Positions 20,034-36,987 of a DNA stretch of 64,000 nucleotides are shown here, one piece after another. Position 1 is the first letter of the stretch. Each line of letters opens with the position of its first letter. Position numbers and translations under genes: made by a program. Location of the stretch: NCBI RefSeq assembly GCF_900102315.1, contig NZ_FNBL01000010.1, forward strand, positions 62,001 to 126,000, given 5' to 3'. Source of the stretch: Celeribacter baekdonensis. GTDB taxonomy: Bacteria > Pseudomonadota > Alphaproteobacteria > Rhodobacterales > Rhodobacteraceae. The notes beneath the pieces were generated by a model that was not told the DNA's origin, ran no database searches, and saw nothing but the letters and a program-made list of their open reading frames with translations.

Positions 20034-21500
20034 TCAGTACACCAGTGGAGCCACCAGCTCCGCGAATGCACTGCCAGCTCCCCGATTTTCTATGACATGG
20101 CATGCTTTTTGGAATGCCGTTACGAATTCGTCGTTCTTTTGTAGAGTCAGAGACGCGAACGGCGTAATGCCAAGAAAATCTAGGGGGGTGCCATCTCTTA
20201 CCACTGCTTCGTCCTGAACCGTCAATTTCGGCTCGATAACCTCAAACATCTCCTTTTTGTCATCCATGCCGAAGAAATAGGAGCGGAAACAAGCCAGATG
20301 ATAGGCGAGAATGGTCGGATCGCCCCCTTTCTCAAGGGTCTCTTGGGTGGTTGCCGACAGAAAAATCGGCAGTTTCGAAACGCCGTCATGGCAAATGCGC
20401 AGCACCTGGTCGCCCACAGCAGGGTTCGAGAAGCGCCGTAAGATCATGTCCCGGTATGCCTTTAGCGAGACGCCGTCGGGTGGTGCAATCAGCGGGATTG
20501 CAACGCTGTCTAGGAACGCGAGAAGCAAATCGCGGATCCTGGGATCGGCGACGGCGCGGTCTACGACACGATGGCCCATAAGGACAGAGGGGTAACACAT
20601 CATCATGTGCGATGCGTTGAGCATTCGTCCCTTGATCGCCTCGAAAGCGTGAACGTCGGATCGCAATTCCACACCGACTTTTTCAAATGCCGGTCGCCCA
20701 TCAGCGAAATCATCTTCGATCACCCATTGGATGAAATCTTCGGCAATCGCTGGGAGTTTGTCTGCCAAGCCCGAGGCCGCGTTGGCGCGCTCGGCCTCGG
20801 CGGAACCAACTTTGGGGGCAATGCGATCCACCATGGAATTCGGGAAGCGGCAGAATTCTTCCATCCAGGCGGCAGTCTCGGGATCGTAAGCTTCGGCGAA
20901 GGAGAGGAAAGCCTTGCGAGTCACCGTCCCATTACTGCGAAGGTTGTCGCACGACATCAGCGTGACCCCACCAAGCCCGGCCCTGCGGCGGCGCTTCAAA
21001 CCCTCAACGACGAAACGGAAGACGCTTTGCGGGCGGCCGCTCAGATCTGTGATGGTACCAAGCTCGAATTCGCCGGTTTCTTCGTTCAGGTTGTACCCGC
21101 CCTCGGTGATCGTAAAGGACAGGATCTTCGTCGCGGGTGCCGCGATGGCCGCCAGTACCGCTTCGGGTTCGGCCGGAGCATTCAAATAGGCCGTCATCGC
21201 TCCAATGACGCGACACGATACCCCGCTGTCGGACGCATATTCCGTTACCGTGTATAGTCCATCCTGTGCGCGGTAAGCTTCGGCCTTGGCTTCGCCGCCA
21301 GGCTTAAGACCGACGCCGATGATCGCCCAGTCCGTTTCGCCCCGCGCCAGACAACGGTCGACATAGACCGCAAGATGGGTGCGGTGGAAGTTGCCGACGC
21401 CGAAGTGGACTATGCCCGGGGTCAGTTTGGTCCGATCATATCCAGGTGCCGCTACATTCTCGGGCAAGTTCGGCAGTGTCAGGTTGGAAAGCGGAATCAT
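20034..21500 (-). CDS. mannitol dehydrogenase family protein (mannitol 2-dehydrogenase-like)
   Basis: A 488-residue polyol long-chain dehydrogenase with the Rossmann start GIVHFGVGNFHRTH and the catalytic Lys motif AIKGRMLNASHMMM. It would oxidise mannitol or a related polyol, or reduce the ketose, with NAD(H). It is the last gene of the leftward operon of the ribose-type importer, 9 bp downstream of the AGE isomerase. That isomerase could make a ketose that this enzyme interconverts with its polyol. Confidence 0.88.
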   Translation of the reverse strand: MIPLSNLTLPNLPENVAAPGYDRTKLTPGIVHFGVGNFHRTHLAVYVDRCLARGETDWAIIGVGLKPGGEAKAEAYRAQDGLYTVTEYASDSGVSCRVIGAMTAYLNAPAEPEAVLAAIAAPATKILSFTITEGGYNLNEETGEFELGTITDLSGRPQSVFRFVVEGLKRRRRAGLGGVTLMSCDNLRSNGTVTRKAFLSFAEAYDPETAAWMEEFCRFPNSMVDRIAPKVGSAEAERANAASGLADKLPAIAEDFIQWVIEDDFADGRPAFEKVGVELRSDVHAFEAIKGRMLNASHMMMCYPSVLMGHRVVDRAVADPRIRDLLLAFLDSVAIPLIAPPDGVSLKAYRDMILRRFSNPAVGDQVLRICHDGVSKLPIFLSATTQETLEKGGDPTILAYHLACFRSYFFGMDDKKEMFEVIEPKLTVQDEAVVRDGTPLDFLGITPFASLTLQKNDEFVTAFQKACHVIENRGAGSAFAELVAPLVY

Positions 21501-21509
21501 GGCGGCTCC

Positions 21510-22736
21510 TTAGGGCGTTTGCTGGATGGCGCGGGTCAGGCTGCCCGTCGCGGGGTATAGAGGGATCAGGCAAGCTTGTAGGGCGTGGTAGATGTCGCCC
21601 TTGCCTGGGAAGATGGTGAAGGATGGCTTCATGTCCTCGGTCAGCTCTTCGCGCCACCCCCCATTCGCTCGATCGACAAAGGCCGAGGAAAGCACATCCC
21701 AGACCTGGCGATATGCTGCCTCCCACTCTGGTGCGGGACAAAGTTCGTTCAGGAAATGCGCCGCGCCGACGGCCTCGCAGGCGGGCCACCAGAGCTTCAT
21801 GCATTTGTCCGGCTTGTCCTGCCAGTCAAGCGTGTAGAAGAACCCGCCGTGCTTGGCGTCCCAGCCGAGTAACATGGCTTGACGAAACAGGCCTTTAGCG
21901 GCCTCGACCATCCAGGTTTCGCGCTTTCCGTCCAGAACCCAAAGCTGCAGGATCAGTCGTGCCCATTCCAGCCAGTGGCCGGGCGTGGTGCCGGCCGGCC
22001 GGAACATCTCGTTCGGATGATAATAGCCGCGGTCAATGGACCAAACCCGGTCGAAATGTTCGGCCACACGCCATCCGACTGAGCGCGCAGCATGGCCGAT
22101 GATCCGTTCGGCGATGCGTTTTGCCTTCTGGAGGTATTCGCTCTCGCCAGTTGCCTCATAGGCTGCCATCAGCGCTTCGGTCAGGTGCATGTTCGAGTTC
22201 TGGCCACGATATGTGCCGCCTTCAAAGGGTTGCCAGTCGGGAGCGAACTCTTCAGCGATGGCACCCGGTCCTTCCTCCCAGAAGCGCGTCTGGAGGATTT
22301 CGGTGGCATCGGCCAACATCCTGTCGGCCAGCGGATGTCCGACGAGTTTTGCTGATGAGGCCGCTAGCAGAACAAAGGCATGGCCATAGCCTTGCTTTGT
22401 CCCATCGACAGGCGCGCCGTCTTTCATCGACCAGAAATAGCCGCCATTCTTCCCGTCGCGGTGTTGAGACCAGAGCATGTCCATGCCGTGATCCACCACC
22501 GCGCGCGAACCCGGGCGGCCGAGCAAGTCGCCGATTGCGAAGCAATGCACGGCACGGGCAGCGATGTGGATAGGGTGAACCTGACCCCCCAGATCAAGCG
22601 CGCGCCCTTCCGGCGTCAGGTCGAAGAAGCCACCTTTAGGATCGATAAATCCATTCTGGAAGAAGTCCCAAAGCCCGTAGGCCTCGGCCCGAAGCCAGTC
22701 GCGGTGCATATGGTTTGTACTCCAGCGGGTTGTCAT
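21510..22736 (-). CDS. AGE-family aldose-ketose isomerase (YihS/mannose isomerase-like)
   Basis: A 408-residue (alpha/alpha)6-barrel protein. The three active-site histidines of the YihS-type isomerases are in place: His184 (SNMHLTEAL), His254 (PGHWLEWA) and His384 (GDIYHALQA), close to YihS numbering (176, 248, 383). Enzymes of this group isomerise unphosphorylated mannose, lyxose or sulfoquinovose to the ketose; true N-acylglucosamine epimerases also belong here. The start overlaps the DUF4432 gene stop (ATGA). The operon partners favour isomerisation of a free imported aldose. Confidence 0.87.
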   Translation of the reverse strand: MTTRWSTNHMHRDWLRAEAYGLWDFFQNGFIDPKGGFFDLTPEGRALDLGGQVHPIHIAARAVHCFAIGDLLGRPGSRAVVDHGMDMLWSQHRDGKNGGYFWSMKDGAPVDGTKQGYGHAFVLLAASSAKLVGHPLADRMLADATEILQTRFWEEGPGAIAEEFAPDWQPFEGGTYRGQNSNMHLTEALMAAYEATGESEYLQKAKRIAERIIGHAARSVGWRVAEHFDRVWSIDRGYYHPNEMFRPAGTTPGHWLEWARLILQLWVLDGKRETWMVEAAKGLFRQAMLLGWDAKHGGFFYTLDWQDKPDKCMKLWWPACEAVGAAHFLNELCPAPEWEAAYRQVWDVLSSAFVDRANGGWREELTEDMKPSFTIFPGKGDIYHALQACLIPLYPATGSLTRAIQQTP

Positions 22737-23821
22737 GCTGTCTCCTGTCGTCCTGCAATCCGGTCGATCAGGTCGCGCCGGGTTTTGGTTTCCGCAGCGT
22801 TGAGCCTGCCGATGCGCATCTCGGTCCGCCAGATTCTTCCGGGTGTCAGTTCCGGCACACGTCCCGCCGCTCTTTCGACTGAAAACCCTCCAAGCCAGGA
22901 GGTTGCCGGTTCGACAATGGCCACGGCGTCAAGATCGGGCTGCCGTGCGATCCAGCGTAGGGCGCGGGGGCAGTCTTTCAGCCGGTGCGAAACTGCATCC
23001 GACGTGCCGTTGGGATGGATTTGCAGCGTATGTGCCCAGCCGTCGCCGTCTGCCTGATAATCGACCTCGAACACCGCCTCGGGGTCGATGGCCTGCCCCG
23101 GAACGAACCGCGAATGGCGCATTGGATCGGAAGCGAGGGCTTGCAATAGGGCGTGTTGCGTCGAACCTTCCAGAGCCGAGGACGGCGGCGTATAAAGTCG
23201 CAGTGCCTCGGCGGTATAGTCTCCGGACCAGACAAGTTCTGCGCCATCAACGGGACGGAAGTTCGGATGCCCCATATACATGAACGGCAGAGGCGCGCGA
23301 CCCAGGTTCTGCACCTTGATGCCGATGACAATCTCCGCAACGTCAGGAGAGAACCGCACGAAAGGCTCGGCACGATACCTGCCGCGGAAGGCCTTGGCAT
23401 AATCCCGTCTGCCCTTGACGGTCAAGGAACGGGAGGCTTCCTCAATCTCAATCCAAGCCTGAGACATGGTGCCGACAGGCAATTCGCCGTGTTGCGGGTG
23501 GCTGTCGCCCGGCCCGGGCGCCGACGTTCCAAAAAGCCCGCAGTGGAAGAAGAATGCCCCAAAGGAGTCCAGAAGCCCCTGCCCTGCTGCGGGCGTCTCG
23601 GTCATCCCGTGCATGCCAACGGCTGCGCCGTTAAAGGCGAGGCTCCAGACTTGCTGGCCGCGCCAGGGCAGGATGATCGCTTCGACTTGCGCTCCCGTTA
23701 CTTTCAGTGCTGCAATGCCGGACAGGTATTTGACTGCGCTCACGGTCCAATTCGGATGGCCGATCAGAACGGTTTCCGTCGGTTGGAATTGGCATGGCGA
23801 CAGCTGAACGGTGAAGGTCAT
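22733..23821 (-). CDS. aldose 1-epimerase-like protein (DUF4432 family)
   Basis: A 362-residue galactose-mutarotase-fold protein of the DUF4432 group. The WRGQQVW stretch, the GAFFFHCGLFG region and HPNFRPVDGAE carry the conserved residues, and the HGELP motif supplies a His. Members are thought to interconvert anomers of sugars or act on related substrates, but few have been assayed. It is coupled by 4-bp overlaps to the transaldolase upstream and the isomerase downstream, so it likely prepares the correct anomer for the isomerase. Confidence 0.8.
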   Translation of the reverse strand: MTFTVQLSPCQFQPTETVLIGHPNWTVSAVKYLSGIAALKVTGAQVEAIILPWRGQQVWSLAFNGAAVGMHGMTETPAAGQGLLDSFGAFFFHCGLFGTSAPGPGDSHPQHGELPVGTMSQAWIEIEEASRSLTVKGRRDYAKAFRGRYRAEPFVRFSPDVAEIVIGIKVQNLGRAPLPFMYMGHPNFRPVDGAELVWSGDYTAEALRLYTPPSSALEGSTQHALLQALASDPMRHSRFVPGQAIDPEAVFEVDYQADGDGWAHTLQIHPNGTSDAVSHRLKDCPRALRWIARQPDLDAVAIVEPATSWLGGFSVERAAGRVPELTPGRIWRTEMRIGRLNAAETKTRRDLIDRIAGRQETA

Positions 23822-24786
23822 GGCCGGGCTTCAGAACGAGCTTGGCCGGAAAGCTTCTCGCCGATCAGCTCCAGTAGCTTACGGTGGTCAAGGTCGAATG
23901 ACCGGATGCCTTCGGCTAGCTTCTCCGAAGCCATTGCATCCGCATTTATCTGCCATCGAAACTGCGCTTCACAGATCGGTTCGGGGGCATCCGCTTCCAC
24001 CGGGCACGGGCCAAGAACGCGCGGCAGGCTAGACTGATCTGCTGCCAGTTCCGAAAGCAGCTCGGGAGAGATGGTCAGCCGGTCGCACCCCGCCAAAGCC
24101 CTAATTTGGCCTGTGTTTCGGAATGATGCGCCCATGACCACGGTATTGATGCCATGTGACTTGTAATATCGGTAGATCTGACGCACCGACAACACGCCTG
24201 GGTCTTCCTCGGGCGCGAAGACCTTCCCCTCCTTGGCAGCGTGCCAATCCGTGATGCGTCCAACAAAGGGAGATATCAGAAAAACCCCGGCATCGGCACA
24301 TGCCTTGGCCTGGGCAAGGCTGAACAACAGCGTCAGATTGCAGCGAATGCCTTCGGCTTCCAGTTGCGCGGCCGCGCGAATGCCTTCCCAGGTTGCCGCC
24401 AGTTTGATCAGGATGCGCTCCGGGGCCACACCTTGAGCGGCGTAGCATGCAATGAGTGTCTTGGCCTTTCGCACCATTGCCGGGGTATCGAAGGAGAGAC
24501 GGGCATCGACTTCCGTCGAGACAACTCCAGGAACGAGGCTGGCCAACTCTGCCCCGACTCGCACGGTTAGGTCGTCGGCAATTGCCTCGATCGAGGTTCC
24601 GTCGGTTTTGGCCCGCGCAATCGCTGAATCGACCAGCGACAACATGGAAGGGCTTTGGAGCGCCTTCAGCACAATCGATGGGTTAGTCGTGCAGTCCTGC
24701 GGCCGCGCTTGTTGAACCGCCCTCAAGTCGCCTGTGTCGGCAACCACGATGGACATTGAGCGCAAGTGTTCGAGGGTTGAGAGCAT
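23818..24786 (-). CDS. tal: transaldolase
   Basis: A 322-residue transaldolase with Asp17 (VADTGD), the TTNPS loop (33-37), STEVDARLSFDT (90-101), Schiff-base Lys128 (ILIKLAATWEGI) and the C-terminal [10 protein letters not shown] and ASFRNTGQI motifs. Length and motifs match TalB. It exchanges a three-carbon unit from fructose 6-phosphate or an analogue. It lies 4 bp after the permease gene of the ribose-type importer, an uncommon position. A specialised donor, such as a modified ketose phosphate, is possible. It is the intact counterpart of the pseudogene at 16570. Confidence 0.9.
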   Translation of the reverse strand: MLSTLEHLRSMSIVVADTGDLRAVQQARPQDCTTNPSIVLKALQSPSMLSLVDSAIARAKTDGTSIEAIADDLTVRVGAELASLVPGVVSTEVDARLSFDTPAMVRKAKTLIACYAAQGVAPERILIKLAATWEGIRAAAQLEAEGIRCNLTLLFSLAQAKACADAGVFLISPFVGRITDWHAAKEGKVFAPEEDPGVLSVRQIYRYYKSHGINTVVMGASFRNTGQIRALAGCDRLTISPELLSELAADQSSLPRVLGPCPVEADAPEPICEAQFRWQINADAMASEKLAEGIRSFDLDHRKLLELIGEKLSGQARSEARP

Positions 24787-24790: not shown

Positions 24791-25786
24791 TTACCGCCGG
24801 TCTATCGCGAAGTTGACGAAGACTGCGCCGAGAATGAGCATACCCTTCACAACTTGCTGAGCATATGGGTTAAACCCCCAGAGCGTCATGGCATTTAACA
24901 GGACGCCCAGAAACAAAACCCCCACGAAGGTCCCCCAAATCGACCCCTTTCCACCGAACAAGCTAACGCCGCCGATGATGCAGGCCGAAATCACTTCCAG
25001 TTCGAGGCCACGCGCGATTGTCGAGTTGCCGGAGTTGATCAGCGACGAGTAGACAATGCCTCCGATAGCGGCAAACACGGACGTAATAATCAGACAGATT
25101 GTCTTGGTGCGCCAGACATTGATCCCTGACAACCTGGCTGCTTCGATATTCCCACCTACCGCATAAATCTCACGGCCGAGCGCGGTATACTTGGAGATGA
25201 CGAACGTTGTCGCGAAGGCGGCGGCCAGCAAATAGACCGGAACAGGTATATGAAAGAGCCTGCCACTCCCGATGACGTAGTACCAGGACGGGAAGCTTTC
25301 GATCGGAACCCCGTTGGTGATTAGGTTTGCCACACCGGCAAGCGTGGCCATCATAGCCAGAGACGAGATGAACGTCGGCACGCCGATCCGGTGCCTGAGT
25401 ATGCCATTGAACTGCCCAACGACGATTGCAAATCCGATCGCGCTGCACATGCCGAGGACGACTACGATAACCGAAGGCTCAAAGGCACCACTGGACAAAA
25501 ATTTCACCATCCATGCCGTGATGCAGGCAGAAACCGCCACCATGGAACCGACCGAGAGGTCGATCTCGCCCACGATGATCAGCAGTGTCATACCGAAGGC
25601 AATCATTCCCGGAACAGCGATGGTGCGCAGGATGTTAAGCTGGTTGTCGAGCGTCATGAACCCACGACCGGTTAGTGCGACCAACACGTAGAAGGCCATG
25701 AGAATCAAAAGCATCGAGTGGCGGCGTAGGAAGTCTGCGTAGTGGTGCGGCTGCCTGGATGTCAAAGTCGTGGAAGTGTTGGTCAT
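24791..25786 (-). CDS. ribose-type ABC transporter permease (RbsC-like)
   Basis: A 331-residue permease with eight to ten hydrophobic segments and the conserved GEIDLSVGSMVAVSAC motif of carbohydrate uptake family 2 permeases. The ATG at 25786 is followed by a short polar N-terminus; the upstream extension in the same frame overlaps the ATPase region and was rejected. It forms the membrane channel of the importer encoded with the ATPase (25819) and binding protein (27376). Confidence 0.9.
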   Translation of the reverse strand: MTNTSTTLTSRQPHHYADFLRRHSMLLILMAFYVLVALTGRGFMTLDNQLNILRTIAVPGMIAFGMTLLIIVGEIDLSVGSMVAVSACITAWMVKFLSSGAFEPSVIVVVLGMCSAIGFAIVVGQFNGILRHRIGVPTFISSLAMMATLAGVANLITNGVPIESFPSWYYVIGSGRLFHIPVPVYLLAAAFATTFVISKYTALGREIYAVGGNIEAARLSGINVWRTKTICLIITSVFAAIGGIVYSSLINSGNSTIARGLELEVISACIIGGVSLFGGKGSIWGTFVGVLFLGVLLNAMTLWGFNPYAQQVVKGMLILGAVFVNFAIDRR

Positions 25787-25818: not shown

Positions 25819-27306
25819 TTAGGCCATTGTGGCGGCGTAGAGGCGCTTCGCGTCGATCTCGGAGCCCACAAATTCGGCAGTGACGGAGCCGTCGTGCAGG
25901 ACGATTACCCGGTCGCAGCACTCGGCCAGATCTTCAAGCTCTGTCGATACGACGATGGAGGACAGGCCACGGCTCGCCTGTTCCCAGATGATCTGATAAA
26001 TTTGGTGCTTTGCCTGTACATCGACACCGCGGCCGGGCTCATCCAGAAGGAAGATACGTGGACTGGTATTCAGCCAGTTGCCAACGACGACTTTCTGCTG
26101 ATTGCCGCCCGAAAGGGACGAGGCTGGAAGCATCGGGTCCGAGACCTTGATGTGCAGATTCCCAATTTGTCGCGCGACGTGTGGACGCTCTAATCCAACC
26201 CATGTCAATCCGCGGCGCGCGATGGATCGCAAAGGCGCCGTCACAAGATTGGCATGTATCGAGTGATCGAGCACCAGTCCGGCATGCTTCCTGTCCTCGG
26301 AGGCATAGGCCAAACCCAACGCTTTGCGCTCAGCGAGCGATTTGTCGGTGATGTCCTGGCCAGCCATAACAAGTTGTCCCGCATCGAACTTTCGTGCTCC
26401 GAAGATGCCGTGCAATAGCTCCGTGCGACCTGCCCCGAGCATGCCGGCGATTCCAAGCACCTCCCCCTTCTTCAGTTTGAAACTTACATCGGTCAGCCAT
26501 GGCGCCATCGACAGCCCCTTAGCCTCCAGGAGGACTTCGTCGTGAACTTTGCGAACTGCGTGTTCGAGCGGCGGCATGTCGCCGAACATCATGTCGAGAA
26601 TTTCGGTGGTGCCAGCCTTTTCCATGGGCAGCGAACCGGCAAAGGTACCGTCCCTGAGCGCGGTCACTGTGTCGGCAATTTCCGGCAGTTCGGCCAGACG
26701 GTGAGAGATGTAGATGATCGTGACGCCCCTAGCTTTCAGGCGGCGGATCAGCGCAAAGAGTTGCTCCACTTCGGATGCTGCGAGTGCCGACGTGGGCTCG
26801 TCCAGCAAAAGGACCTTCGGCGAAAGGCTCGACGCCTTGACGATCTCGACAACCTGTTGCCTTCCAACCGAGAGCGTTTCGACGGCCTGATGGGGGTCGA
26901 TGTCGAACGCCCCCATTTCCGACAGAAGTTCTCCCGCGCGCCTGTTCAGCAGTGTCCAGTCGATGAGGCAGCCCCCCGCACGTCGCGGCAACCGGCCCAG
27001 AAATATGTTTTCTGCCACGGAAAGGCCCGGGACCAGGCTGAGTTCCTGGTAGACGGTGACGACACCGGCCTCCATCGCCTCCTGCGGCGTCCGGAATTCC
27101 ACGTCTTGCGCGCCGACAGCGATCTTGCCGGATGTCGGCGCGGTCGCCCCCGAGAGCATGCGCACGAATGTGCTTTTCCCGGATCCGTTCTTGCCGATCA
27201 GGGCATGCACCTGGCCGCCAGCAAAACTGTGGGTGAAATTGTCCAGTGCGCGGACAGGCCCATAGTGTTTTGTCAGCCCTTCGAAATGCAAATCAATGCC
27301 AGTCAC
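25819..27306 (-). CDS. ribose-type ABC transporter ATPase (RbsA-like, two nucleotide domains)
   Basis: A 495-residue protein with two ABC domains. The first has Walker A GKNGSGKST and Walker [11 protein letters not shown]; the signature LSVGRQQ replaces LSGGQ. The second has a degenerate Walker A (GMLGAGRTEL) and the signature LSGGNQQK, as usual in this family. I start at GTG (27304-27306) because GGGGAGG lies a few bases upstream. It energises the RbsC-like permease. Confidence 0.9.
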   Translation of the reverse strand: MTGIDLHFEGLTKHYGPVRALDNFTHSFAGGQVHALIGKNGSGKSTFVRMLSGATAPTSGKIAVGAQDVEFRTPQEAMEAGVVTVYQELSLVPGLSVAENIFLGRLPRRAGGCLIDWTLLNRRAGELLSEMGAFDIDPHQAVETLSVGRQQVVEIVKASSLSPKVLLLDEPTSALAASEVEQLFALIRRLKARGVTIIYISHRLAELPEIADTVTALRDGTFAGSLPMEKAGTTEILDMMFGDMPPLEHAVRKVHDEVLLEAKGLSMAPWLTDVSFKLKKGEVLGIAGMLGAGRTELLHGIFGARKFDAGQLVMAGQDITDKSLAERKALGLAYASEDRKHAGLVLDHSIHANLVTAPLRSIARRGLTWVGLERPHVARQIGNLHIKVSDPMLPASSLSGGNQQKVVVGNWLNTSPRIFLLDEPGRGVDVQAKHQIYQIIWEQASRGLSSIVVSTELEDLAECCDRVIVLHDGSVTAEFVGSEIDAKRLYAATMA

Positions 27307-27330
27307 GCTTGCCTCCCCTAGCAAAGTCCG

Positions 27331-27355
27331 CACCGCCCGGTTTCGCCGGGCGGTG
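27331..27355 (-). terminator. intercistronic hairpin between binding-protein and ATPase genes
   Basis: A perfect 10-bp stem CACCGCCCGG / CCGGGCGGTG with a 5-nt loop. There is no T-run on the minus strand after it, so it probably protects the binding-protein mRNA or attenuates the downstream genes. Confidence 0.6.
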
Positions 27356-28338: not shown

Positions 28339-28511
28339 TGGGTTCCTCCCTCGGTGATGAGTGCTTGGGCGCCACGGGTAAGTGGCTTTCCGCAAATTGC
28401 GACTCCAACCTTGCTTCGGGCGTCGGATGGAGTGATGGCCCAGAGTTTTTGGTTTCTGCGCTTGCCATCTGCGGTCCTCCCCGGCCGAGATAGTTTGGCA
28501 GTCTTTATTTA

Positions 28512-28532: not shown

Positions 28533-28567
28533 ATATATCGCTTATAATTTGTCAACTTTAATTTGTT

Positions 28568-28580: not shown

Positions 28581-28692
28581 AATGTGTCAATGGGAAGCGG
28601 TGAGGACGCTAGAACGTTCGAAAATCTCTTTCGTTACATTTAGTTAGAAACGCCCGTTGAGAGAGGCCGCGCCGTTCATGCGCGGTCAATTG

Positions 28693-29192
28693 ATGCCTCC
28701 CGCCAAAGCGAAAGCCCTGATTTCGACTGCGATGGCACGCTCGCAGTCACGCGGCACGCCCATTTTGAGGCCCTGCGTCAAGCTTTCGATGATCAAGGTG
28801 TGACATGCGATGTCGCCGAAGTTCGAAAGATGCATGTCGCGCTCTTCCCGAACCTCCTCTCACGCGTACGCCCGGTTTTTGAAATCGTCGCCGTGGCGCG
28901 CACCCATTTTGGACGGTTGCCGCTTGCCGTCGCATCGTGCGGTGATCAGCTCATCGTCGAGATGACTCTCGAGCGAGTTGGTATCCGAACGCTTTTCGAT
29001 CATGTGGTCGCGATTGGGACCGTCTGCCGTGGTAAACCCGCTCCCGACCTGTTTCTCGCCGCTTCAGAAAGGTTGGGCGTTGCGCCAGAGACCTGTCACG
29101 TCTACGAGGACAGCGACGAAGGGTTGGAGGCTGCCTCGCGGGCAGGCATGTCCGCCTTGGATGTCAGGGAAGTGCCGGGACTGACACGATAG
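28693..29192 (+). pseudogene. HAD-superfamily sugar-phosphatase pseudogene
   Basis: The reading frame starts at an ATG (28693), codes PPAKAKALI, then changes frame exactly at the catalytic motif. The expected FDCDGTL is encoded one frame over, consistent with loss of one T in the run before TCGAC. The second frame continues to the stop at 29192 with RLPLAVASCG (motif II), RGKPAPDLFLAASERLG and VYEDSDEGLEAASRAGM (motif IV). A segment of the cap domain after TCDVAEV also looks shortened. The 3' 91 bp overlap the ROK repressor gene on the other strand. Confidence 0.75.
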
Positions 29193-30388
29193 GTCTCTTC
29201 GAAAACGCCGCCGATCTCAACGTTCGAAATATCAAACGAAACGTGATGCGAGATGCAGGCCGCTCCGATGGCACATTCATAAGCGCCGAGCGGCGAGATC
29301 AGAATGTCAGGCATGCGTGTGCCGGGAATAATGCGCGTGGCAACAGATGCCTTTACCTCCGCCAGAGCCCGGCGCAGGACAGGGATCATTGCGCCGCCAA
29401 GGACGACCTGAGCTGGATTGAAGACATTGATGAGCGACACAAGGCCAGTCGCGAGATGCTGGGCGATCGAAGATGTTGCGCCGATCGCCCGCGCATCCCC
29501 CCGATCGCACGCGCTTGCAACCTCATCCGGAAGCAAATTGAGATCAACCGGGCCAGGTTCCTCGCCCGTCCATGCCCGCGACAGGGCCGCCAGATTGACC
29601 CATGTTTCGAGGCAGCCACGCTGGCCGCAGGAGCAGACCGCGCCCATTTCGCCGACATGAATGTGACCCAACTCTAGCCCGGTACCATCTACGCCGCGCA
29701 AGAGACGGCCATTGACAATGGCGGCCCCGCCACAGCCGGTGCCAAGCTTCAAAAATACGGTGTAGGGCGCAACCAGGCCTGGTTGCGTGTATACCGCACC
29801 GAACGCTGCTGCATTGGCGTTGTTCTCGATCGTCACCGGCAGGTCGGTCGCGGACATCAGATAAGATCTGAAATCCGTGTTCTTCCAGCCGAGGATCGGA
29901 AGGTTGACGATGAACCCCTCGGACGTAACCAACCCGGGCACAGTCACCCCCACCCCGACGACACGCCCGCGGTAGGACGCCTTTTCGGCAAAGCGTTTGA
30001 TTGTGGTCGCAATCGCATCAGCGGCGAGCTGTGGGGTTGGCTTCGACGCCAACTTTGTTTCTACCGCCTCAGCGACATTAGCGGAAAGGTCCAACAGAAC
30101 GATGCGTAGTGTCGACACACCGATTTCGACGCCGACAAAATAGGCTCCGACTGGGTCGACCTCCAAGGCAATCCCAGGACGCCCTGGTTCGCGTTCCTTT
30201 CCAGGCATTGCCGCCTTGACCTCGCGCAAGTGACCCCGCTTGATCATCTGAGATGTCAGGCGGCTGATAGTCGCCTGCGTCAGGCCGAGGCTACGCGAGA
30301 GTTCGGCCCGTGACAACGCTCCCCTTGTACGCAAAAGCGTCAGGATTCTGCGTTGGTTCACGAACTTCGCGAGAGTTTGATCCGCCAT
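29102..30388 (-). CDS. ROK-family transcriptional repressor (NagC/XylR-like)
   Basis: A 428-residue regulator. The N-terminal winged helix-turn-helix (about residues 9-60, RAELSRSLGLTQATISRL) is followed by a ROK domain with the sugar-binding ELGHIHVGE motif and the zinc motif CSCGQRGCLE. NagC/XylR-type ROK proteins repress sugar operons and release DNA on binding the sugar. The ATG at 30388 is preferred to a longer version. It lies between two operons that carry near-identical palindromes, so it is the likely master switch of both. Its 3' end overlaps the HAD pseudogene. Confidence 0.88.
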   Translation of the reverse strand: MADQTLAKFVNQRRILTLLRTRGALSRAELSRSLGLTQATISRLTSQMIKRGHLREVKAAMPGKEREPGRPGIALEVDPVGAYFVGVEIGVSTLRIVLLDLSANVAEAVETKLASKPTPQLAADAIATTIKRFAEKASYRGRVVGVGVTVPGLVTSEGFIVNLPILGWKNTDFRSYLMSATDLPVTIENNANAAAFGAVYTQPGLVAPYTVFLKLGTGCGGAAIVNGRLLRGVDGTGLELGHIHVGEMGAVCSCGQRGCLETWVNLAALSRAWTGEEPGPVDLNLLPDEVASACDRGDARAIGATSSIAQHLATGLVSLINVFNPAQVVLGGAMIPVLRRALAEVKASVATRIIPGTRMPDILISPLGAYECAIGAACISHHVSFDISNVEIGGVFEETYRVSPGTSLTSKADMPAREAASNPSSLSS

Positions 30389-30481
30389 AGGCCCTGCCCT
30401 GTCTGTAGAATGGTTTCTCAACAGTTAACCGAATTCCTTCCTCAACGGAAGAAACTCATTCTAATGATTCTGTTTAATTTG

Positions 30482-30502
30482 TTACTTTAGTAAAGTTAAT
30501 AA
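30482..30502. promoter_or_regulatory. ROK-repressor operator candidate (Gfo/Idh/MocA operon promoter)
   Basis: The perfect 13-bp palindrome ACTTTAGTAAAGT sits within a 21-bp block shared with 28512-28532 (one difference at the centre). It lies 70 bp before the ATG at 30572 and 94 bp before the ROK start, so it can control both directions. Confidence 0.68.
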
Positions 30503-30571: not shown

Positions 30572-31645
30572 ATGACAACCAACAACAGAAAGCTGAACAT
30601 AGGCATCCTCGGCTGCGGGCCGATTGCCCAAGCAGCGCATTTCGAAAGCGCGGCCAAGGCGAAGAACGCCGAGCTCTATGCAATATGCGACCTGGCAGAC
30701 GACCTGCGCGAGCGGATGGCCGCGACCCACGCGCCGAAGAACAGCTTCGCCAATTACGAGGAAATGCTGGCCGATCCTGAACTTGATGCCGTGGTCATCG
30801 CCACAACTGACGCCTTCCACGTTCAGGCCTCCATTTCCGCGCTGCGGGCGGGCAAGCATGTCCTTTGCGAAAAGCCCTTGGGCATTTCCGTCGAAGAGGT
30901 GGAAGAGCTTCGGTCCGAGGTCGAGGCGTCGGGTAAGGTTCTCCAGGTCGGCAACATGAAGCGCTTCGATCCGGGTATCCAGAGCGCCAAAGCGTTCATC
31001 GACCAGGAAATGGGCGAAATGCTGGCTTTGAAAGTCTGGTACTGTGATAGCACCCATCGCTATGCGGTTACGGATGCGGTTCAGCCGCTGATGGTGAAAT
31101 CCGCCAAAGCCAAGAAGCCACCAGTCAATCCGAAGGCCGACCTCGAACGCTACTACATGCTCGCGCATGGCAGCCATTTGTTGGATACCGCCCGGCATTT
31201 TGCGGGCGAGATCGTCGAGGTCGAGGCCCGTCTTCGCAATCGTTACGGCGCGTATTGCTGGTTCATAGATGTAGCCTTTGCCAATGGCGTCATCGGCCAT
31301 CTCGACCTTACGGTCTCGGTGCGGATGGATTGGCACGAGGGCTTCCAGGTCTATGGCGAGCACGGTTCAATCCTCGGCAAGACCTACAACCCGTGGCTGT
31401 TCAAATCGTCAGACGTCGATGTCTTCCGTGAAAAAACTGGAACGACGACACGGGTTCTCGGTGCGGACGGACATTTCTATCGACGTCAGCTCGAAGCCCT
31501 CTCGGACGTCGTTCTGAAAAACGCGCCAATGGTCGGCGCGAATATTGACGACGGGGTAGCCTCGGTGCGCGGCATGGTGGCAATCGCCCAATCGGTGGCA
31601 AGCGGGCAGGCGGTGAAGCTAGCCGATGTGTCAGGGGGGCTATGA
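30572..31645 (+). CDS. Gfo/Idh/MocA-family sugar oxidoreductase
   Basis: A 357-residue NAD(P)-dependent dehydrogenase. The nucleotide motif GILGCGPIAQ is at residues 11-20, the EKP motif (CEKPLGISVEE) carries the conserved Lys, and HGSHLLDTARH supplies the catalytic Asp/His pair. Enzymes of this family oxidise a hydroxyl of a sugar, inositol or glycoside, often at C3. It is the first gene of a rightward chain whose next genes start at 4-bp overlaps. Its promoter contains the ROK-type operator. Confidence 0.88.
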   Translation: MTTNNRKLNIGILGCGPIAQAAHFESAAKAKNAELYAICDLADDLRERMAATHAPKNSFANYEEMLADPELDAVVIATTDAFHVQASISALRAGKHVLCEKPLGISVEEVEELRSEVEASGKVLQVGNMKRFDPGIQSAKAFIDQEMGEMLALKVWYCDSTHRYAVTDAVQPLMVKSAKAKKPPVNPKADLERYYMLAHGSHLLDTARHFAGEIVEVEARLRNRYGAYCWFIDVAFANGVIGHLDLTVSVRMDWHEGFQVYGEHGSILGKTYNPWLFKSSDVDVFREKTGTTTRVLGADGHFYRRQLEALSDVVLKNAPMVGANIDDGVASVRGMVAIAQSVASGQAVKLADVSGGL

Positions 31646-32463
31646 TGCAACTCGGAATTTTTGCCAAGACATTTGCCGGGGCCACGCCGATGACTGTGTT
31701 GGAGGCCGCGCGCGGCGCTGGCTACGACTCCGTACAATACAACATGGCCTGCTCCGGCATCGGATCACTACCCCCCGAAGTACCGGATGCTGCATCTGGG
31801 GCCGTCCGGTCTGCATCGCAGGACACCGGCGTTGGCATTGCGGCTCTGTCCGCAACCTACAACATGATTCATCCCGACCTCGACAAGCGGGCTGCAGGTC
31901 GGGCAAGCTTCACGGCGATTGCAGCACAAGCGCACACCATGGGCACGCGGCTGATGACGCTCTGCACTGGCAGCGCCGACGCACAAGACCAGTGGCGGGA
32001 CCACCCCGAAAACCGCTCTGCCGCCTCCTGGAACACCATGATGTCGGAGTTCGAGGCGCTCATCGCCATCGCCGAACGCCATGATCTTCTTCTGGGTGTC
32101 GAGCCGGAATTGGCCAACGTAATTGACAGTGCCGAGGCTGCGCACCGCCTGATCCGGGAGGCGCAGAGCGACCGCATCCGTATCGTGCTCGACCCTGCCA
32201 ACCTCTGCGAGGTCGCCGCACCGGAGGAACGCCGTCGCATTACCGCCAAAGCCATTGATCTGCTGGGCGGGCACATTGTAATGGCGCACGCCAAGGATCG
32301 CCACGCCGATGGAAGTTTTGCCACCGCTGGAACGGGTGTGGTAGATTTTGCCGATTTTATCTCCCGTCTGAAGGCGGCGGGATTTGACGGGCCGCTGGTC
32401 ACCCATGGTCTGGCGGCGGCGGAAGCCCCCGGTGTCGCTACTTTCCTGCGGGGGCTGGCATGA
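31642..32463 (+). CDS. sugar phosphate isomerase/epimerase-like TIM-barrel protein
   Basis: A 273-residue xylose-isomerase-like TIM barrel. Probable metal ligands are Glu in GVEPELAN, Asp in VLDPANLCE and His in AHAKDRH; at the usual last Glu the sequence has THGL, so a His may replace it. Family members isomerise or epimerise ketoses, dehydrate inosose or cleave 3-keto-glycosides. The ATG overlaps the upstream stop (ATGA). Next to a Gfo/Idh/MocA dehydrogenase, a role on a keto-sugar product is likely. Confidence 0.82.
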   Translation: MMQLGIFAKTFAGATPMTVLEAARGAGYDSVQYNMACSGIGSLPPEVPDAASGAVRSASQDTGVGIAALSATYNMIHPDLDKRAAGRASFTAIAAQAHTMGTRLMTLCTGSADAQDQWRDHPENRSAASWNTMMSEFEALIAIAERHDLLLGVEPELANVIDSAEAAHRLIREAQSDRIRIVLDPANLCEVAAPEERRRITAKAIDLLGGHIVMAHAKDRHADGSFATAGTGVVDFADFISRLKAAGFDGPLVTHGLAAAEAPGVATFLRGLA

Positions 32464-33239
32464 CTTTCATCACCGCAGATGGCGTACGACTGAACCTCGA
32501 TATCGGCGGTGACGGGCCGGATCTGATCTTTCAGCACGGGCTCTGCGGAGATCGCACCCAGGCGGCACAGGTGGTGCCCGATGGCGTGCGTCGTCTGACG
32601 CTGGAATGTCGCGGCCACGGACTTTCCGAGGCCGGGCCGCTCGAACGGCTGTCACTGGCACAGTTCACCGATGACCTTGCCAACGTGATCTTGCGAAAGG
32701 GCATCCGGCCGGTCGTTGGCGGCATCTCCATGGGGGCGGCGATTTCGCTCCGGCTCGCTGTAAGGCGCCCCGACCTGATGCACGCGCTGGTCCTGGCTCG
32801 CCCCGCCTGGGGAACTGAGGCCGCGCCAGCCAATATGGCTCCCAACGCCGAGGTGGGCGAGATGCTTGCGCGCGGCGAGTCGGTGGGCGAGTTCGACGAA
32901 ACAAATACGGCGCGGATGCTGGCCTCATCTGCGCCGGACAACCTCGCCTCGCTGCGTGGATTCTTCTCCCGTGAACCGAGGCGTGTCACCTCTGCGCTGC
33001 TGCGGCAGATTTCAATGGATGGACCGGGGGTCAACGAATCCGATCTTTCGGCCCTGAACCTGCCAGTCCTGGTGATTGGCCATGAGCGAGATCACGTGCA
33101 CCCTCTCGGCCTGGCAGAGGACCTGGTCCGCGCCATCCCGGGCGCGAGGCTCGCCCGAATCACGCCCAAGGCCGACCACCCCGAAGTCTATCGCAACGAT
33201 TTCCGTGCGGCACTGGCCGCCTTCCTGAAAGGTCTCTGA
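32460..33239 (+). CDS. alpha/beta-fold hydrolase
   Basis: A 259-residue alpha/beta hydrolase with the nucleophile elbow GGISMGAA (Ser), an oxyanion-loop FQHGLCGDRTQ, an Asp-containing VIGHERDHVHP and a late His (KADHPEVY). Substrates of the family range from lactones to esters. It is coupled by a 4-bp overlap to the TIM-barrel gene, so lactone or ester opening of the oxidised sugar is the simplest proposal. No lipase-type signal peptide is present; it is cytoplasmic. Confidence 0.82.
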   Translation: MTFITADGVRLNLDIGGDGPDLIFQHGLCGDRTQAAQVVPDGVRRLTLECRGHGLSEAGPLERLSLAQFTDDLANVILRKGIRPVVGGISMGAAISLRLAVRRPDLMHALVLARPAWGTEAAPANMAPNAEVGEMLARGESVGEFDETNTARMLASSAPDNLASLRGFFSREPRRVTSALLRQISMDGPGVNESDLSALNLPVLVIGHERDHVHPLGLAEDLVRAIPGARLARITPKADHPEVYRNDFRAALAAFLKGL

Positions 33240-33240: not shown

Positions 33241-33936
33241 ATGACGCCCGCTGCCAACTGGCTTGACACCCTGCCCCGCCATCGACTGATGGCCGAATAC
33301 TCGCTCTGGTCGGCCGATCTTCTGAATATCGGCGCCGAGATCGACCGAGTCGATCCATATGTCGACCTCTACCACATCGATGTCGCCGATGGGCATTTCT
33401 CACCCGCCCTGCTCTATTTCCCCGACCTCGTAGCGGCCTGCCGCAAGCGGACTGCGAGGCCGTTCCATGTCCATCTGATGGCGACAGATGATATCCTGCT
33501 CAACCAGATCGACCAGTTTGCCGAAGCTGGTGCCGACCTTATCTCGGTCCATGCCGAAAACGGCGATCCCGAAGCCGCATTGGCGCGGATCGAGAGCCAT
33601 GGAGTCAAGGCCGGGATCGTTCTACAGCTGTTCACGCCCGTATCCGAAGCGGCCCAATGGCTCGACAGGATCGCGATGCTGACGCTTCTGGGGACGCGGA
33701 TCGGGGTCAAGGGCCAGGGGCTCGACCCAGAAGCCGAACCGCGCCTGGCCGAAGCGCGCGCGTTGATCGCCGGACGCAATGTGGTCCTCGCGGCAGACGG
33801 TGCCATTCGCGATCACACCGTTCCGGGTCTTGCGGCGCACGGAGCCGAAACCATCGTCATGGGATCGCTCGCCTTCAATGCACCAGACCTTGCGGCGCGG
33901 ATGGCCTGGGTCCACGGCCAAAAGATTGGCGGCTGA
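33241..33936 (+). CDS. ribulose-phosphate 3-epimerase family protein (AlsE-like)
   Basis: A 231-residue Rpe-family TIM barrel. Metal-binding pieces are LYHIDVADGHFSP, FHVHLMATDD and a C-terminal AADGAIRDH in place of the usual VDGGI. The phosphate site is GSLAF. It is shorter on conserved Rpe sequence than the housekeeping enzyme, so it may act on another ketose phosphate, as AlsE does on allulose 6-phosphate. It begins 1 bp after the hydrolase stop and precedes the ROK kinase by 1 bp. Confidence 0.82.
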   Translation: MTPAANWLDTLPRHRLMAEYSLWSADLLNIGAEIDRVDPYVDLYHIDVADGHFSPALLYFPDLVAACRKRTARPFHVHLMATDDILLNQIDQFAEAGADLISVHAENGDPEAALARIESHGVKAGIVLQLFTPVSEAAQWLDRIAMLTLLGTRIGVKGQGLDPEAEPRLAEARALIAGRNVVLAADGAIRDHTVPGLAAHGAETIVMGSLAFNAPDLAARMAWVHGQKIGG

Positions 33937-33937
33937 G

Positions 33938-34879
33938 ATGCCAGCGGCACTCGGTTTCGACCTTGGCGGGACGCAGGTCCGGGCCGCGCTGGTGCAGGAT
34001 GGCGCGGTGGTCCGCCGAGAAGCCCTTCGCACCGACGTGGCTGGCGGACCTGAGGCGGTCATGCGTCAATTCGTGAATCTTGCCAACAAGGTAACGGGCG
34101 GCATCGCACCCGCGGCAGTCGGGCTTGCGGCGCCCGGGCCTCTCGATACTGATGCCGGCGTCGTCGATCATATTCCGACGCTTCCCGGCTGGGACGGTTT
34201 TCCTTTGCGTACTCGCTTGGGAGAGACGTTCGGTTTGCCTGCCGCAGTCGAAAACGATGGTATCGCAGCGGCTCAAGGTGAATGGCAGCATGGCGCGGGC
34301 CGCGGGCTGCGCCACCTCGTCTATGTCACCGTGTCGACCGGCGTGGGGGGCGGCGTTGTCATGGACGGGCGGCTTGTGCATGGCCGTCGTGGTATGGGCG
34401 CGCATGTCGGACACTTCCGTATCGCAGAGAACGGTCCGACATGCTCGTGTGGTCGAACCGGTTGTTTTGAAGCCTTCGTCGCCGGTACGGCCCTTGGCCG
34501 CCGCGCCCGCGTGCAGGCCAATACCGAGACGTCCGGCCATCTGGGCCGGATTACCGGTCGTGAGGTCGAGGCCCGCGATGCCGTCGAAGGCGCGCTGCAG
34601 GGCGACGCGAGCTGCCTCGCGCTTCTTGCTGAAGAGGCCCGCCTGCTGGGCCAAGGCTTCGCCAGCCTGGCTCATCTTTATGGGCCAGAGCGGATCATTA
34701 TGGGCGGCGGGGTCAGCCATGCCTTCGAACTCTTGGAGGACGAAATTCTGCGCGCATACCGCGCCGAGGCCATGCCTCCGTACAGAGATGTCGTTATCGT
34801 GCCCGCTCTATTGGGCGACAATGCCGGGCTGATCGGAGCTGCCGCTCTGGCCCTGAATGCAAGCGGAGGAAACCCATGA
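33938..34879 (+). CDS. ROK-family sugar kinase
   Basis: A 313-residue cytoplasmic ROK kinase without a DNA-binding domain. ATP motif DLGGTQVR (8-15), catalytic Asp107 (VENDG) and zinc motif CSCGRTGCFE (169-178) are intact. The sugar-recognition motif, usually GExGH, reads AHVGH (His156 where Glu is normal), a substitution also seen in N-acetylmannosamine kinases such as NanK. That points to an unusual hexose derivative. The gene is followed by a 4-bp overlap with the SDR gene. Confidence 0.88.
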   Translation: MPAALGFDLGGTQVRAALVQDGAVVRREALRTDVAGGPEAVMRQFVNLANKVTGGIAPAAVGLAAPGPLDTDAGVVDHIPTLPGWDGFPLRTRLGETFGLPAAVENDGIAAAQGEWQHGAGRGLRHLVYVTVSTGVGGGVVMDGRLVHGRRGMGAHVGHFRIAENGPTCSCGRTGCFEAFVAGTALGRRARVQANTETSGHLGRITGREVEARDAVEGALQGDASCLALLAEEARLLGQGFASLAHLYGPERIIMGGGVSHAFELLEDEILRAYRAEAMPPYRDVVIVPALLGDNAGLIGAAALALNASGGNP

Positions 34880-35634
34880 GTTATCTACAGAACTTTCGAC
34901 TGGACGGACGGCGCGCCGTGGTCACGGGCGGGGCTGGCGGGATCGGAGCCGCCTGCGTCGATGCGCTTTTGGAAGCTGGCGCCGAAGTCGTCATCGTCGA
35001 TTTCGCCGAGGACAGTCTAACCGCAGCGCAGGAGCGCCTTGCCGGGCAACCGGTCAGCTTCGAAAAGGTCGATCTGACCGATTGCAAGGCGGTGAACGCC
35101 CTGGCAGACCGGCTGGGCGCGATTGATATCCTTGTGAACAATGCTGGAATCGGTCGACAGACTGCCGCCGAGGACATCTCGGAAGAGGAATGGAACCAGG
35201 TCATTGCGATCAACCTCAACGCGGTTTTCTGGTGTGCCCAGGCTTTCGGGCGTGGAATGGTGTCACGAGGCAAGGGAGCGATAGTCAATATGGGCTCAAT
35301 GGCAGGGGAAATTGCAGTCCGGCCGCAGAAGAACGTGCACTACAACGCCTCGAAAGCGGCAGTTCATCACGCGACAAAGTCGCTTGCCGCCGAATGGGCT
35401 CCGAATGGCGTACGGGTCAATGCCGTTGCCCCCGGTTTCATTGAAACGCCAATGAACGCCTTTGCATTGAAAAACGACAAGGTGACGTCCGGCATCTGGC
35501 TCGGAAATATCCCGATGGCGCGCTTTGGCAATCCGTCTGAAATCGCCTCGGTCGTTCTATTCCTTGCCTCTGATGCCTCCAGTCTGATGACGGGATCGAT
35601 TGTGCTGGCCGACGGAGGCTACACTGTCTGGTGA
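34876..35634 (+). CDS. SDR-family oxidoreductase
   Basis: A 252-residue classical SDR: VTGGAGGIG (16-24), NNAGIG and catalytic YNASK are present, as is the terminal LADGGYTVW. It resembles gluconate 5-dehydrogenase/polyol dehydrogenase SDRs. The gene is coupled to the ROK kinase and overlaps the following SDR by about 11-35 bp depending on the latter's start. Its role is oxidation or reduction of a pathway sugar; the substrate is unknown. Confidence 0.85.
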   Translation: MSYLQNFRLDGRRAVVTGGAGGIGAACVDALLEAGAEVVIVDFAEDSLTAAQERLAGQPVSFEKVDLTDCKAVNALADRLGAIDILVNNAGIGRQTAAEDISEEEWNQVIAINLNAVFWCAQAFGRGMVSRGKGAIVNMGSMAGEIAVRPQKNVHYNASKAAVHHATKSLAAEWAPNGVRVNAVAPGFIETPMNAFALKNDKVTSGIWLGNIPMARFGNPSEIASVVLFLASDASSLMTGSIVLADGGYTVW

Positions 35635-36397
35635 TCTCGCGGGCAAGCGGGTCCTCGTTGCCGGCGGCGCTAGCGGTATTGGGGCAGTCATCGCCCGGTG
35701 CGCGGCATTGAACGGGGCTTTCGTTATTGTGGCGGACCGTGATCTTGGCGGGGCGCAGGCCGTGGCAGGGGAGTTGCCCCACGCCTCGGCGCTCGAACTG
35801 GACGTGACCGATCCCACTTCTATCGAGTCACTGGTTGATTGCCTCGAAACCGATGGCCTGGTTCCCGACGCGCTGGTTCAGTCCGCTGGAATTTGGGAGA
35901 TGGGGGGCGTTCTCGAAGCGGACAGGGCTTCCTTTGCACGGCTTTTCGCGGTCAACGTCGAAGGATGCTTCTTTACCCTTCAGGCCACCGCGCGCCTGAT
36001 GATTAGGCACGGCAGGCCGGGCGCCATCGTCACTCTTGCCTCGCAGGCCGGACGCCGGGGCGAGGCGGCATCGCCATTTTACGCGGCGACCAAGGCCTCG
36101 GTGATCAGCCTTACCCAATCGGCGGCGCTGGACCTGATCGGCCGCGGTATCCGGGTCAACGCCGTGGCCCCAGGAAACATTGATACGCCCATGTGGACGC
36201 AAGTTGACGCAAGCTTCGCCGCGCGAGACGGGCAATCGCTTGGGGACAAGACCCGCTCGGTTGCCGCGATGATCCCGATTGCCCGCTTCGCTACCCCCGA
36301 AGAAGTAGCCGAAGTCGTCGTATTCCTCATATCCGACCGAGCGAGCTATGTCGTTGGTCAGACTTGGAACGTCGACGGCGGCAACTTCCTGAGTTGA
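35600..36397 (+). CDS. SDR-family polyol dehydrogenase (SmoS sorbitol dehydrogenase-like)
   Basis: An SDR of about 257-265 residues with VAGGASGIGAVIA and catalytic YAATK; the ending QTWNVDGGNFLS and the LASQAGRRGEA block are very like Rhodobacter SmoS, which oxidises sorbitol, galactitol and L-iditol. The start is uncertain: a TTG at 35600 has no ribosome site, while a CTG at 35624 sits 5 nt after GGAGG. Either start overlaps the previous gene. It closes the tightly coupled chain. Confidence 0.82.
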   Translation: MCWPTEATLSGDLAGKRVLVAGGASGIGAVIARCAALNGAFVIVADRDLGGAQAVAGELPHASALELDVTDPTSIESLVDCLETDGLVPDALVQSAGIWEMGGVLEADRASFARLFAVNVEGCFFTLQATARLMIRHGRPGAIVTLASQAGRRGEAASPFYAATKASVISLTQSAALDLIGRGIRVNAVAPGNIDTPMWTQVDASFAARDGQSLGDKTRSVAAMIPIARFATPEEVAEVVVFLISDRASYVVGQTWNVDGGNFLS

Positions 36398-36423
36398 CCG
36401 TCCCAAAGGAGAACATAGCCCCG

Positions 36424-36987
36424 ATGTCCATCCAAATTTGTGCCTTCGACGAAGTCGAGACTTTCCTCGTACACGCGCCCGTTCATGTGCTGTCGATCCG
36501 CGATCCTGCAACCGCTCGGCCGCTGCCACTGAACGGGCGGAACGATGTCTCGGAACTAGAGTTTCATGACAGGATCGCCCTCGAGCCGGGAATCGATTTG
36601 CCAAGAATGGAACACGTTGACGCGATCATCGCGCTTGGTCGCCGCCACCTGCCCCGTGGCACGGTGCTCGTTCACTGTACAATGGGCATCTCGCGTTCGG
36701 CAGCCGCCGCTGCCATCATGCTGGCAGCGCATGAGCCTGCGCGCTCGGAGACCGCGATCTTCGATCAAATCCTCTCAATCCGCCCGATAGCGTGGCCCAG
36801 TTCCCTCTTGATCACACTTGCTGACCAGCGACTGAATAGGGGCGGACGACTTATTGAAGCGCTCGAGGCCTTTCATACTCGGCAGGTGCAAGCTGCACCG
36901 GAAACCGCCGCCATCATTGCGAGGTCCGGACGCGCCGCCGAAGTGGCCGCCGCCAAAACCCGCGCCGGGGTTAGAAACGTCCCATGA
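36424..36987 (+). CDS. dual-specificity/tyrosine phosphatase-like protein
   Basis: A 187-residue protein with the Cys-phosphatase P-loop HCTMGISRS (Cys nucleophile, Arg) and an upstream region that may give the general acid Asp. It starts 26 bp after the SDR, in the same direction, and the sugar operon may extend to it. Bacterial members dephosphorylate proteins, phospholipids, inositol phosphates or polysaccharide-related substrates. A sugar- or inositol-phosphate role is possible here but not shown. Confidence 0.75.
   Translation: MSIQICAFDEVETFLVHAPVHVLSIRDPATARPLPLNGRNDVSELEFHDRIALEPGIDLPRMEHVDAIIALGRRHLPRGTVLVHCTMGISRSAAAAAIMLAAHEPARSETAIFDQILSIRPIAWPSSLLITLADQRLNRGGRLIEALEAFHTRQVQAAPETAAIIARSGRAAEVAAAKTRAGVRNVP

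Follow-up and report, generated by a model that had tools for sequence, protein, structure and literature searches.

The ROK-family gene described here lies in a 64,000-nucleotide stretch of the Celeribacter baekdonensis genome (contig NZ_FNBL01000010.1; hereafter the window, position 1 being its first letter). Two sets of sugar genes flank it: a left operon with a ribose/allose-type importer, which runs leftward as does the ROK gene, and a rightward operon that begins with a Gfo/Idh/MocA (Gfo/Idh) dehydrogenase gene. A first-pass annotation had proposed that the ROK protein joins these ~16 kb into one regulon through two 21-bp blocks, one before the importer operon and the other between the ROK gene and the Gfo/Idh operon. 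The gene calls behind this placement held with small corrections, such that, with the ATG codons checked, the importer binding protein starts at 28338 and the ROK coding sequence spans 29102-30388. The central features are listed below, with ranks from a matrix built on other genomes.

28508..28528, + strand: site A, predicted operator of the importer operon (block 28512-28532 of the first-pass annotation; rank 1)
28562..28582, + strand: third, weaker predicted operator (rank 3; 54 bp from site A)
29102..30388, - strand: predicted ROK-family repressor, with an N-terminal winged helix-turn-helix and a ROK domain without the kinase ATP motif (PF00480 and helix-turn-helix matches)
30478..30498, + strand: site B, predicted operator between the ROK gene and the Gfo/Idh operon (block 30482-30502; rank 2)

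Two near-identical blocks at the ROK locus

Direct reading of the sequence gave TTACTTTTGTAAAGTTAATAA at 28512-28532 and TTACTTTAGTAAAGTTAATAA at 30482-30502, which agree at 20 of 21 positions. This identity, claimed in the first-pass annotation, was confirmed by an all-against-all scan of the 64 kb, in which no other two 21-mers on the same strand agreed at 20 or more positions; the scan also gave 14 inverted-pair entries, and the ten of them that were listed lay elsewhere than the blocks. With up to three mismatches allowed, the 21-mer matched twice in the window compared to 0.00 expected from 100 dinucleotide shuffles, and the 13-base core ACTTTNGTAAAGT matched seven times with up to two mismatches compared to 1.06 expected. 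Five of these seven matches are site A, site B, and a third copy at 28568-28580 that has two mismatches to ACTTTNGTAAAGT, with two sites being read on both strands. The exact core occurs only twice in the whole 4.44 Mb genome, both times at this locus. Seven further places in the genome matched with one mismatch, six of them inside open reading frames (ORFs) of at least 100 aa, and since a reversed-pattern control gave 24 matches compared to 10 for the pattern at this threshold, there is no general genomic excess of such words.

The dyad alone is not rare: sites A and B pair at 9 of 12 arm positions, and 93 centers in the window do equally well or better. Dyad symmetry was thus rejected as evidence for being too common, and the exceptional feature is the near identity of the two copies together with their conservation elsewhere, rather than their symmetry.

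The distance from the end of a minus-strand TTGACA hexamer (28550-28555) to the central base of the site A core is 29 nt, identical to that in five Shinella loci (a less even definition of the core center had given 30 and 28 nt). Site A reaches with one arm into the presumed -10 region of the importer promoter, which fits repression through blocking of the polymerase; this promoter was absent from the output of a simple promoter scan. The core of the third copy, CTTTAAGAAAG, is the same as that of the Shinella operator, which reads TTTCTTACTTTAAGAAAGATA in the region upstream of the Shinella importer and varies in L038, which has an A after the first T-run, and in L026, which is one base off. 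The 54-bp spacing of the third copy, about five helical turns, would suit a second bound dimer. With the Gfo/Idh start ~82 bp and the ROK start ~100 bp downstream of site B in their respective directions, ROK probably also regulates its own gene through this site.

Conservation of the motif with ROK orthologues

As a single query against genome contigs, the ROK protein found no relative, and a query alignment including two Shinella orthologues found twelve loci with 45-65% identity to the window ROK, in Mesorhizobium, Rhizobium, Devosia, Shinella, Rhodobacteraceae, and two less precisely named genomes. Since three Shinella and three Devosia-type loci are among them, the twelve cannot all count as independent; L025 and L026, as further Shinella sequences, did not enter the counts. 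Between the window and its closest orthologue, L029, the ROK-Gfo/Idh intergenic region has diverged except for TTTnTTACTTTnGTAAAGnTAATA, the longest conserved block, which is site B. A matrix built from L029 and three Shinella loci ranked site A, site B, and the third copy first, second, and third in the window (29.8, 28.6, and 22.7 bits); site A is also overlapped by the next two matches (18.4 and 17.0 bits), beyond which the top score in the window was 14.1 bits. As this matrix contained nothing from the window, its ranking supports the earlier claim of a weaker third copy at 28568-28580.

The first-pass annotation had also suggested looking for the palindrome upstream of orthologues in related genomes, where its absence would count against the proposal, and it is present in these promoters. 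When a matrix built from sites A and B (the window-only matrix) was used, in 11 of the 12 ROK loci the best match preceded either the ROK gene or an orthologous operon, while none of 400 column-shuffled matrices reached 11 loci (mean 4.8, maximum 10). At 15 bits or more, the window-only matrix gave 11 matches in orthologous promoters, distributed over 7 of the 12 loci, and 0 elsewhere, compared to shuffled means of 0.81 in promoters and 0.76 elsewhere; the shuffled promoter maximum was 6, and 0 of 300 reached 11. A thirteenth ROK orthologue, which was found later, entered no matrix, and was scored only, had four separate best sites of 19.3, 19.3, 15.0, and 12.9 bits, located 36 bp ahead of a second TIM-barrel gene (xylose-isomerase-like family), ahead of an ATP-binding cassette (ABC) ATPase gene, in the gap between ROK and the importer, and upstream of Gfo/Idh. 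Identical 21-base operators stand at positions 1563 and 5138 of L076, the first of them 36 bp before a second xylose-isomerase-like TIM-barrel gene.

Whole genomes were also scanned. The consensus of all sites, which by construction includes those of the window, gave five matches at up to three mismatches in the window's own genome (the three locus sites, one of them on both strands, and one place on contig C34), one in the L029 genome (the ROK-Gfo/Idh site), and 1, 3, and 1 in three Shinella genomes, with the ROK region included every time. Two loose matches to the motif lie away from the locus in the own genome, at C26:43236 (L007) and C34:142635 (L050), one flanked by genes for a LysR-type protein and an MFS transporter and the other upstream of a GntR-type gene; the GntR-side match also falls inside a 381-aa ORF on the opposite strand. 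A further scan of six genomes at up to two mismatches, with a pattern chosen after the L030 and L033 sites had been viewed, gave two matches in R. mongolense and four in R. leguminosarum Vaf-46 (two of them on other contigs). One match in each of these genomes falls just outside the fetched locus, directly upstream of a mannitol-dehydrogenase/Gfo-Idh operon, and scores 21.9 and 22.3 bits, respectively, with the window-only matrix. A Mesorhizobium metagenome-assembled genome (MAG) had two matches and Mesorhizobium AR07 one, all in the ROK locus, and none was found at up to two mismatches in the L035 and L037 genomes.

As controls, we took from 122 plasmid records nine loci that contain the Gfo/Idh operon with no close ROK orthologue in the stretch, the presence of ROK being judged from the plasmid records. 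None of the nine had a strong site at the Gfo/Idh gene, and their best matches overall ranged from 8.6 to 17.2 bits. The only best match adjoining a Gfo/Idh start was that of L054, at 8.6 bits, and L027 carries 12.1-bit matches beside a distant ROK. A conserved word, TTCTTTACTTTCGTAAACAAA, accounts for the 17.2-bit lookalike at L028 5952, L052 1240, L053 952, L055 295, and L058 40, and in L028, L052, and L053, all rhizobial, it is flanked by one gene for a sugar-binding protein and another for a LacI-family regulator. Word pairs within loci were discarded as motif evidence, being mostly noise among the matches listed.

The gene sets also recur with ROK. The Gfo/Idh operon, whole or in part, is in the same locus as ROK in 9 of 12 cases (L029, L030, L033-L038, L040); L032 shows a part of the operon's first gene where its contig ends, and in L031 and L039 it lies just beyond the fetched locus. 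Importer orthologues with 47-52% identity and a DUF4432 gene are near ROK in L031 and L039, an AGE gene is near it in L030, L032, and L039, and L030 has the transaldolase and mannitol dehydrogenase genes as well. A mannitol dehydrogenase gene heads the Gfo/Idh operon in R. mongolense and R. leguminosarum Vaf-46. This recurrence near the same ROK in other genera, in differing arrangements, indicates, independently of the window, that the gene sets flanking the window ROK belong together. Relatives of the Gfo/Idh gene occur in 119 plasmid records.

The ROK protein and the genes of the two operons

The ROK domain matched PF00480 at 176.3 bits (cut-off 22.9), and the winged helix-turn-helix at residues 12-54 matched MarR and HTH_24 barely above their cut-offs (25.9 vs 24.6 and 22.6 vs 21.9). 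The ATP motif of the kinases is DxGxT, and the zinc motif of ROK proteins is CxCGxxGC. By eye, the window ROK has VEIGVSTLR where DxGGT would stand and retains CSCGQRGC. The protein resembles NagC and Mlc of E. coli in combining a winged helix-turn-helix with a ROK domain, and the models of these two cover most of its length at 133.5 and 132.8 bits; since these scores fall far under the NCBIfam equivalog cut-offs (650 and 530, respectively), its being NagC or Mlc was ruled out.

Close relatives of the window ROK were rare in the genome samples: it was found in its own genome only, at E 1e-60 among 394 genomes of its family and at 1e-50 among 385 genomes of its class, while a sample of 297 genomes from the Shinella family had it at 1e-60 in two, one being the Shinella at the center of that sample; all of these searches scored only the best 4 or 5 candidates per genome, and their counts are lower bounds. 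Within the genus, three of 19 congeners gave no match at 1e-30 and the other 16 did; the matches listed share 28-32% identity and are therefore paralogues rather than orthologues. Taken together, the rarity of ROK and the congener pattern suggest that it was acquired horizontally or lost repeatedly. Among plasmids, ROK is present at ~47% identity in six Shinella records; at 1e-40 this ROK was found in no plasmid record outside Shinella, and a DNA-level search of plasmids gave no match.

In the tree, the window ROK groups with those of L029 and L037 (98/96 support). Its recognition helix has Arg-Leu, as in L029, L037, Shinella, and the Rhizobium type, while the thirteenth orthologue has Lys-Leu and the Devosia types Ser/Gly-Met. 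These changes run in step with those of the operator core, which would fit direct contact, if only anecdotally. The ROK C-terminal extension past about residue 393 (29102-29210, - strand) is antisense to the remnant of a HAD/beta-phosphoglucomutase-like gene (28722-29174, + strand), and the measured orthologues end at 392-407. The remnant, which has 37-39% identity to genes in ROK loci L030, L031, and L039, lacks a stretch in its cap region, overlaps the 3' end of the ROK gene, and falls outside the list of ORFs of at least 150 aa.

The remaining genes of the two operons are as follows.

20034..21500, - strand: mannitol/sorbitol-type long-chain polyol dehydrogenase (PF01232, PF08125; nearest solved structure sorbitol dehydrogenase 5itg)
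21510..22736, - strand: AGE-family aldose-ketose isomerase (PF07221; D-mannose isomerase model below cut-off)
22733..23821, - strand: DUF4432 protein, presumed sugar mutarotase (PF14486)
23818..24786, - strand: transaldolase (TIGR00874 talAB at 419.9 bits, above the cut-off of 396.2)
24791..25786, - strand: importer permease (NCBIfam model scan)
25819..27333, - strand: importer ATPase (NCBIfam model scan)
27376..28338, - strand: sugar-binding protein of a ribose/allose-type ABC importer (NCBIfam allose and ribose models, below cut-offs)
30572..31645, + strand: Gfo/Idh/MocA sugar dehydrogenase, first gene of the rightward operon (family profile; nearest solved structure by sequence DgpA)
31642..32463, + strand: xylose-isomerase-like TIM barrel, presumed keto-sugar epimerase (PF01261)
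32460..33239, + strand: alpha/beta hydrolase (model scan)
33241..33936, + strand: ribulose/allulose-phosphate 3-epimerase family (PF00834; rpe and allulose-6-phosphate 3-epimerase models below cut-offs)
33935..34879, + strand: ROK-family sugar kinase (DLGGT motif present)
34876..35634, + strand: SDR dehydrogenase, GolD/DthD-like (model scan)
35600..36397, + strand: SDR dehydrogenase, iditol-dehydrogenase-like (model scan)
36364..36987, + strand: dual-specificity-phosphatase-like protein, last gene of the operon (weak PF00782 match, below cut-off)

Ribose- and allose-binding proteins are among the PDB matches of the importer binding protein, and a YihS/sulfoquinovose isomerase is among the solved structures nearest to the AGE isomerase; a sequence search of solved structures with the DUF4432 protein found no relative. 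The best fold match of the Gfo/Idh model (predicted local distance difference test, pLDDT, 80.3) was 1,5-anhydrofructose reductase, with glucose-fructose oxidoreductase, levoglucosan dehydrogenase, and others also matching, and the AlphaFold model of the TIM barrel (pLDDT 92.7) resembles UlaE, D-psicose 3-epimerase, and the 3-keto-glucoside 4-epimerase YcjR. The pathway was left unassigned to allose or mannose, for which the models scored below cut-offs, and to sulfoquinovose, whose sole link is the isomerase among the nearest solved structures. At the edges of the locus, a single ORF at 18440-19618 (- strand) combines a fragment of a TctA transporter with an Ldh_2 malate/lactate dehydrogenase, perhaps as a rearrangement scar, and a transketolase-like protein is encoded at 37598-39970 (+ strand), just 3' of the rightward operon. 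No operator-like site was found before the latter gene among the top matches in the window.

A predicted sugar regulon and its alternatives

Conservation of the motif with ROK, together with the recurrent gene associations, supports the proposal that ROK unites ~16 kb into one regulon, and we consider it highly probable that the protein encoded at 29102-30388 is the local repressor of a single sugar-catabolic regulon of two outward-running operons. We infer from the sequence that ROK binds these sites, represses from them, regulates its own gene, and responds to a sugar inducer. In the absence of the inducing sugar, ROK would occupy site A and the auxiliary site 54 bp upstream, covering the importer promoter, and at site B it would cover the Gfo/Idh promoter along with the region upstream of its own gene. 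Binding of the sugar or an early intermediate would release ROK and turn both operons on together, so that uptake, isomerization, and carbon rearrangement would begin at once. A hexose or hexitol is the probable substrate, reaching fructose 6-phosphate via keto-sugar epimerization.

Such a system would be an ordinary multi-operon ROK sugar regulon of the kind known from ManR of Thermotoga maritima. That ROK protein uses experimentally tested sites to control two operons, which encode mannan/mannoside hydrolases and an ABC transporter (PMC3750489). The likeness consists of one ROK regulator, two operons, and an ABC importer with catabolic enzymes, with the window sites being predicted from sequence; the phylum, genes, and sugar differ. 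By eye, the window operators also have the T-rich left and A-rich right arms that a report on RokB of Streptomyces coelicolor, a regulator with several genomic sites, describes for known ROK operators (PMC4856308). RokB differs in the spacing and sequence of its operator and in its amino-acid context, as opposed to the sugar context here. No description of the present regulon was found in the open-license literature.

A wider reading, which we regard as possible but short of probable, is that ROK is the master switch of an undescribed alphaproteobacterial route for a hexose or hexoside. This route would comprise Gfo/Idh oxidation, keto-sugar epimerization by the TIM barrel, and conversion of an allulose-type phosphate to fructose 6-phosphate; recognition helix and operator core would have co-changed in at least four groups (window/L029, Shinella, Rhizobium-Mesorhizobium, and Devosia), and the regulon would have been reshuffled between importers.

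Several results weigh against the single-regulon interpretation. Only 7 of the 12 loci reach 15 bits, and 6 of the 11 matches at this level come from the three Shinella loci; the best matches of L031, L032, L035, and L037 are weak (8.6-12.5 bits), and in L039 the best match within its own locus is not at a promoter. Reversed-consensus controls gave 5, 0, 3, 0, and 4 matches in the own, L029, and three Shinella genomes, respectively, equaling or exceeding the loose matches in three of the five (5 vs 5, 3 vs 1, and 4 vs 1), and those of the six-genome scan (2, 0, 1, 2, 1, and 1) were similar to the pattern counts in some genomes. Thus, loose matching alone does not discriminate, while exact matches do. 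The 17.2-bit lookalike, which stands elsewhere than at Gfo/Idh in five of the nine control loci, likewise means that the matrix by itself is not specific to ROK. Lastly, in the 3.8 Mb genome of the closest relative (L029) the Gfo/Idh site is the sole one found, and a close relative of the importer binding protein turned up in only 2 of 7 genomes with ROK, so control of the importer is not universal.

The palindrome could instead be bound by another regulator encoded elsewhere, with ROK controlling something else. Binding by ROK is a prediction, and a similar word precedes rhizobial sugar-binding-protein genes, beside a LacI gene in three of five cases. However, the motif accompanies ROK in both Rhodobacterales and Hyphomicrobiales, the nine loci without ROK nearby have no strong Gfo/Idh site, and ROK is the sole transcription factor seen among the 16 scanned genes of 20034-36987, which makes this alternative unlikely.

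Slightly less likely still is that ROK controls only the Gfo/Idh operon and itself, with site A being bound without consequence for the importer. The single site in the nearest relative and the five of seven ROK genomes that have no close relative of the importer binding protein would fit this explanation. In contrast, the overlap of site A with the presumed -10 region has the same spacing as in the importer promoter of Shinella, and importer promoters with sites occur in Shinella, the Mesorhizobium MAG (L030), and the thirteenth orthologue, as well as weakly (12.0 bits) in R. mongolense. That the blocks are chance or recently duplicated AT-rich sequence of no function is hardly credible, since, although 93 centers in the window are as symmetric, the shuffles yield an expectation of zero for the 21-mer, and in L029 the block is retained although the sequence around it has diverged.

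A single regulon under ROK would bring ~16 kb of sugar genes with loose annotation together as one testable unit. Its operator can locate missing pathway genes in other genomes, as it did in the two Rhizobium genomes. The regulon would also mark a Gfo/Idh-epimerase-kinase gene set, under a control principle that is itself ordinary.

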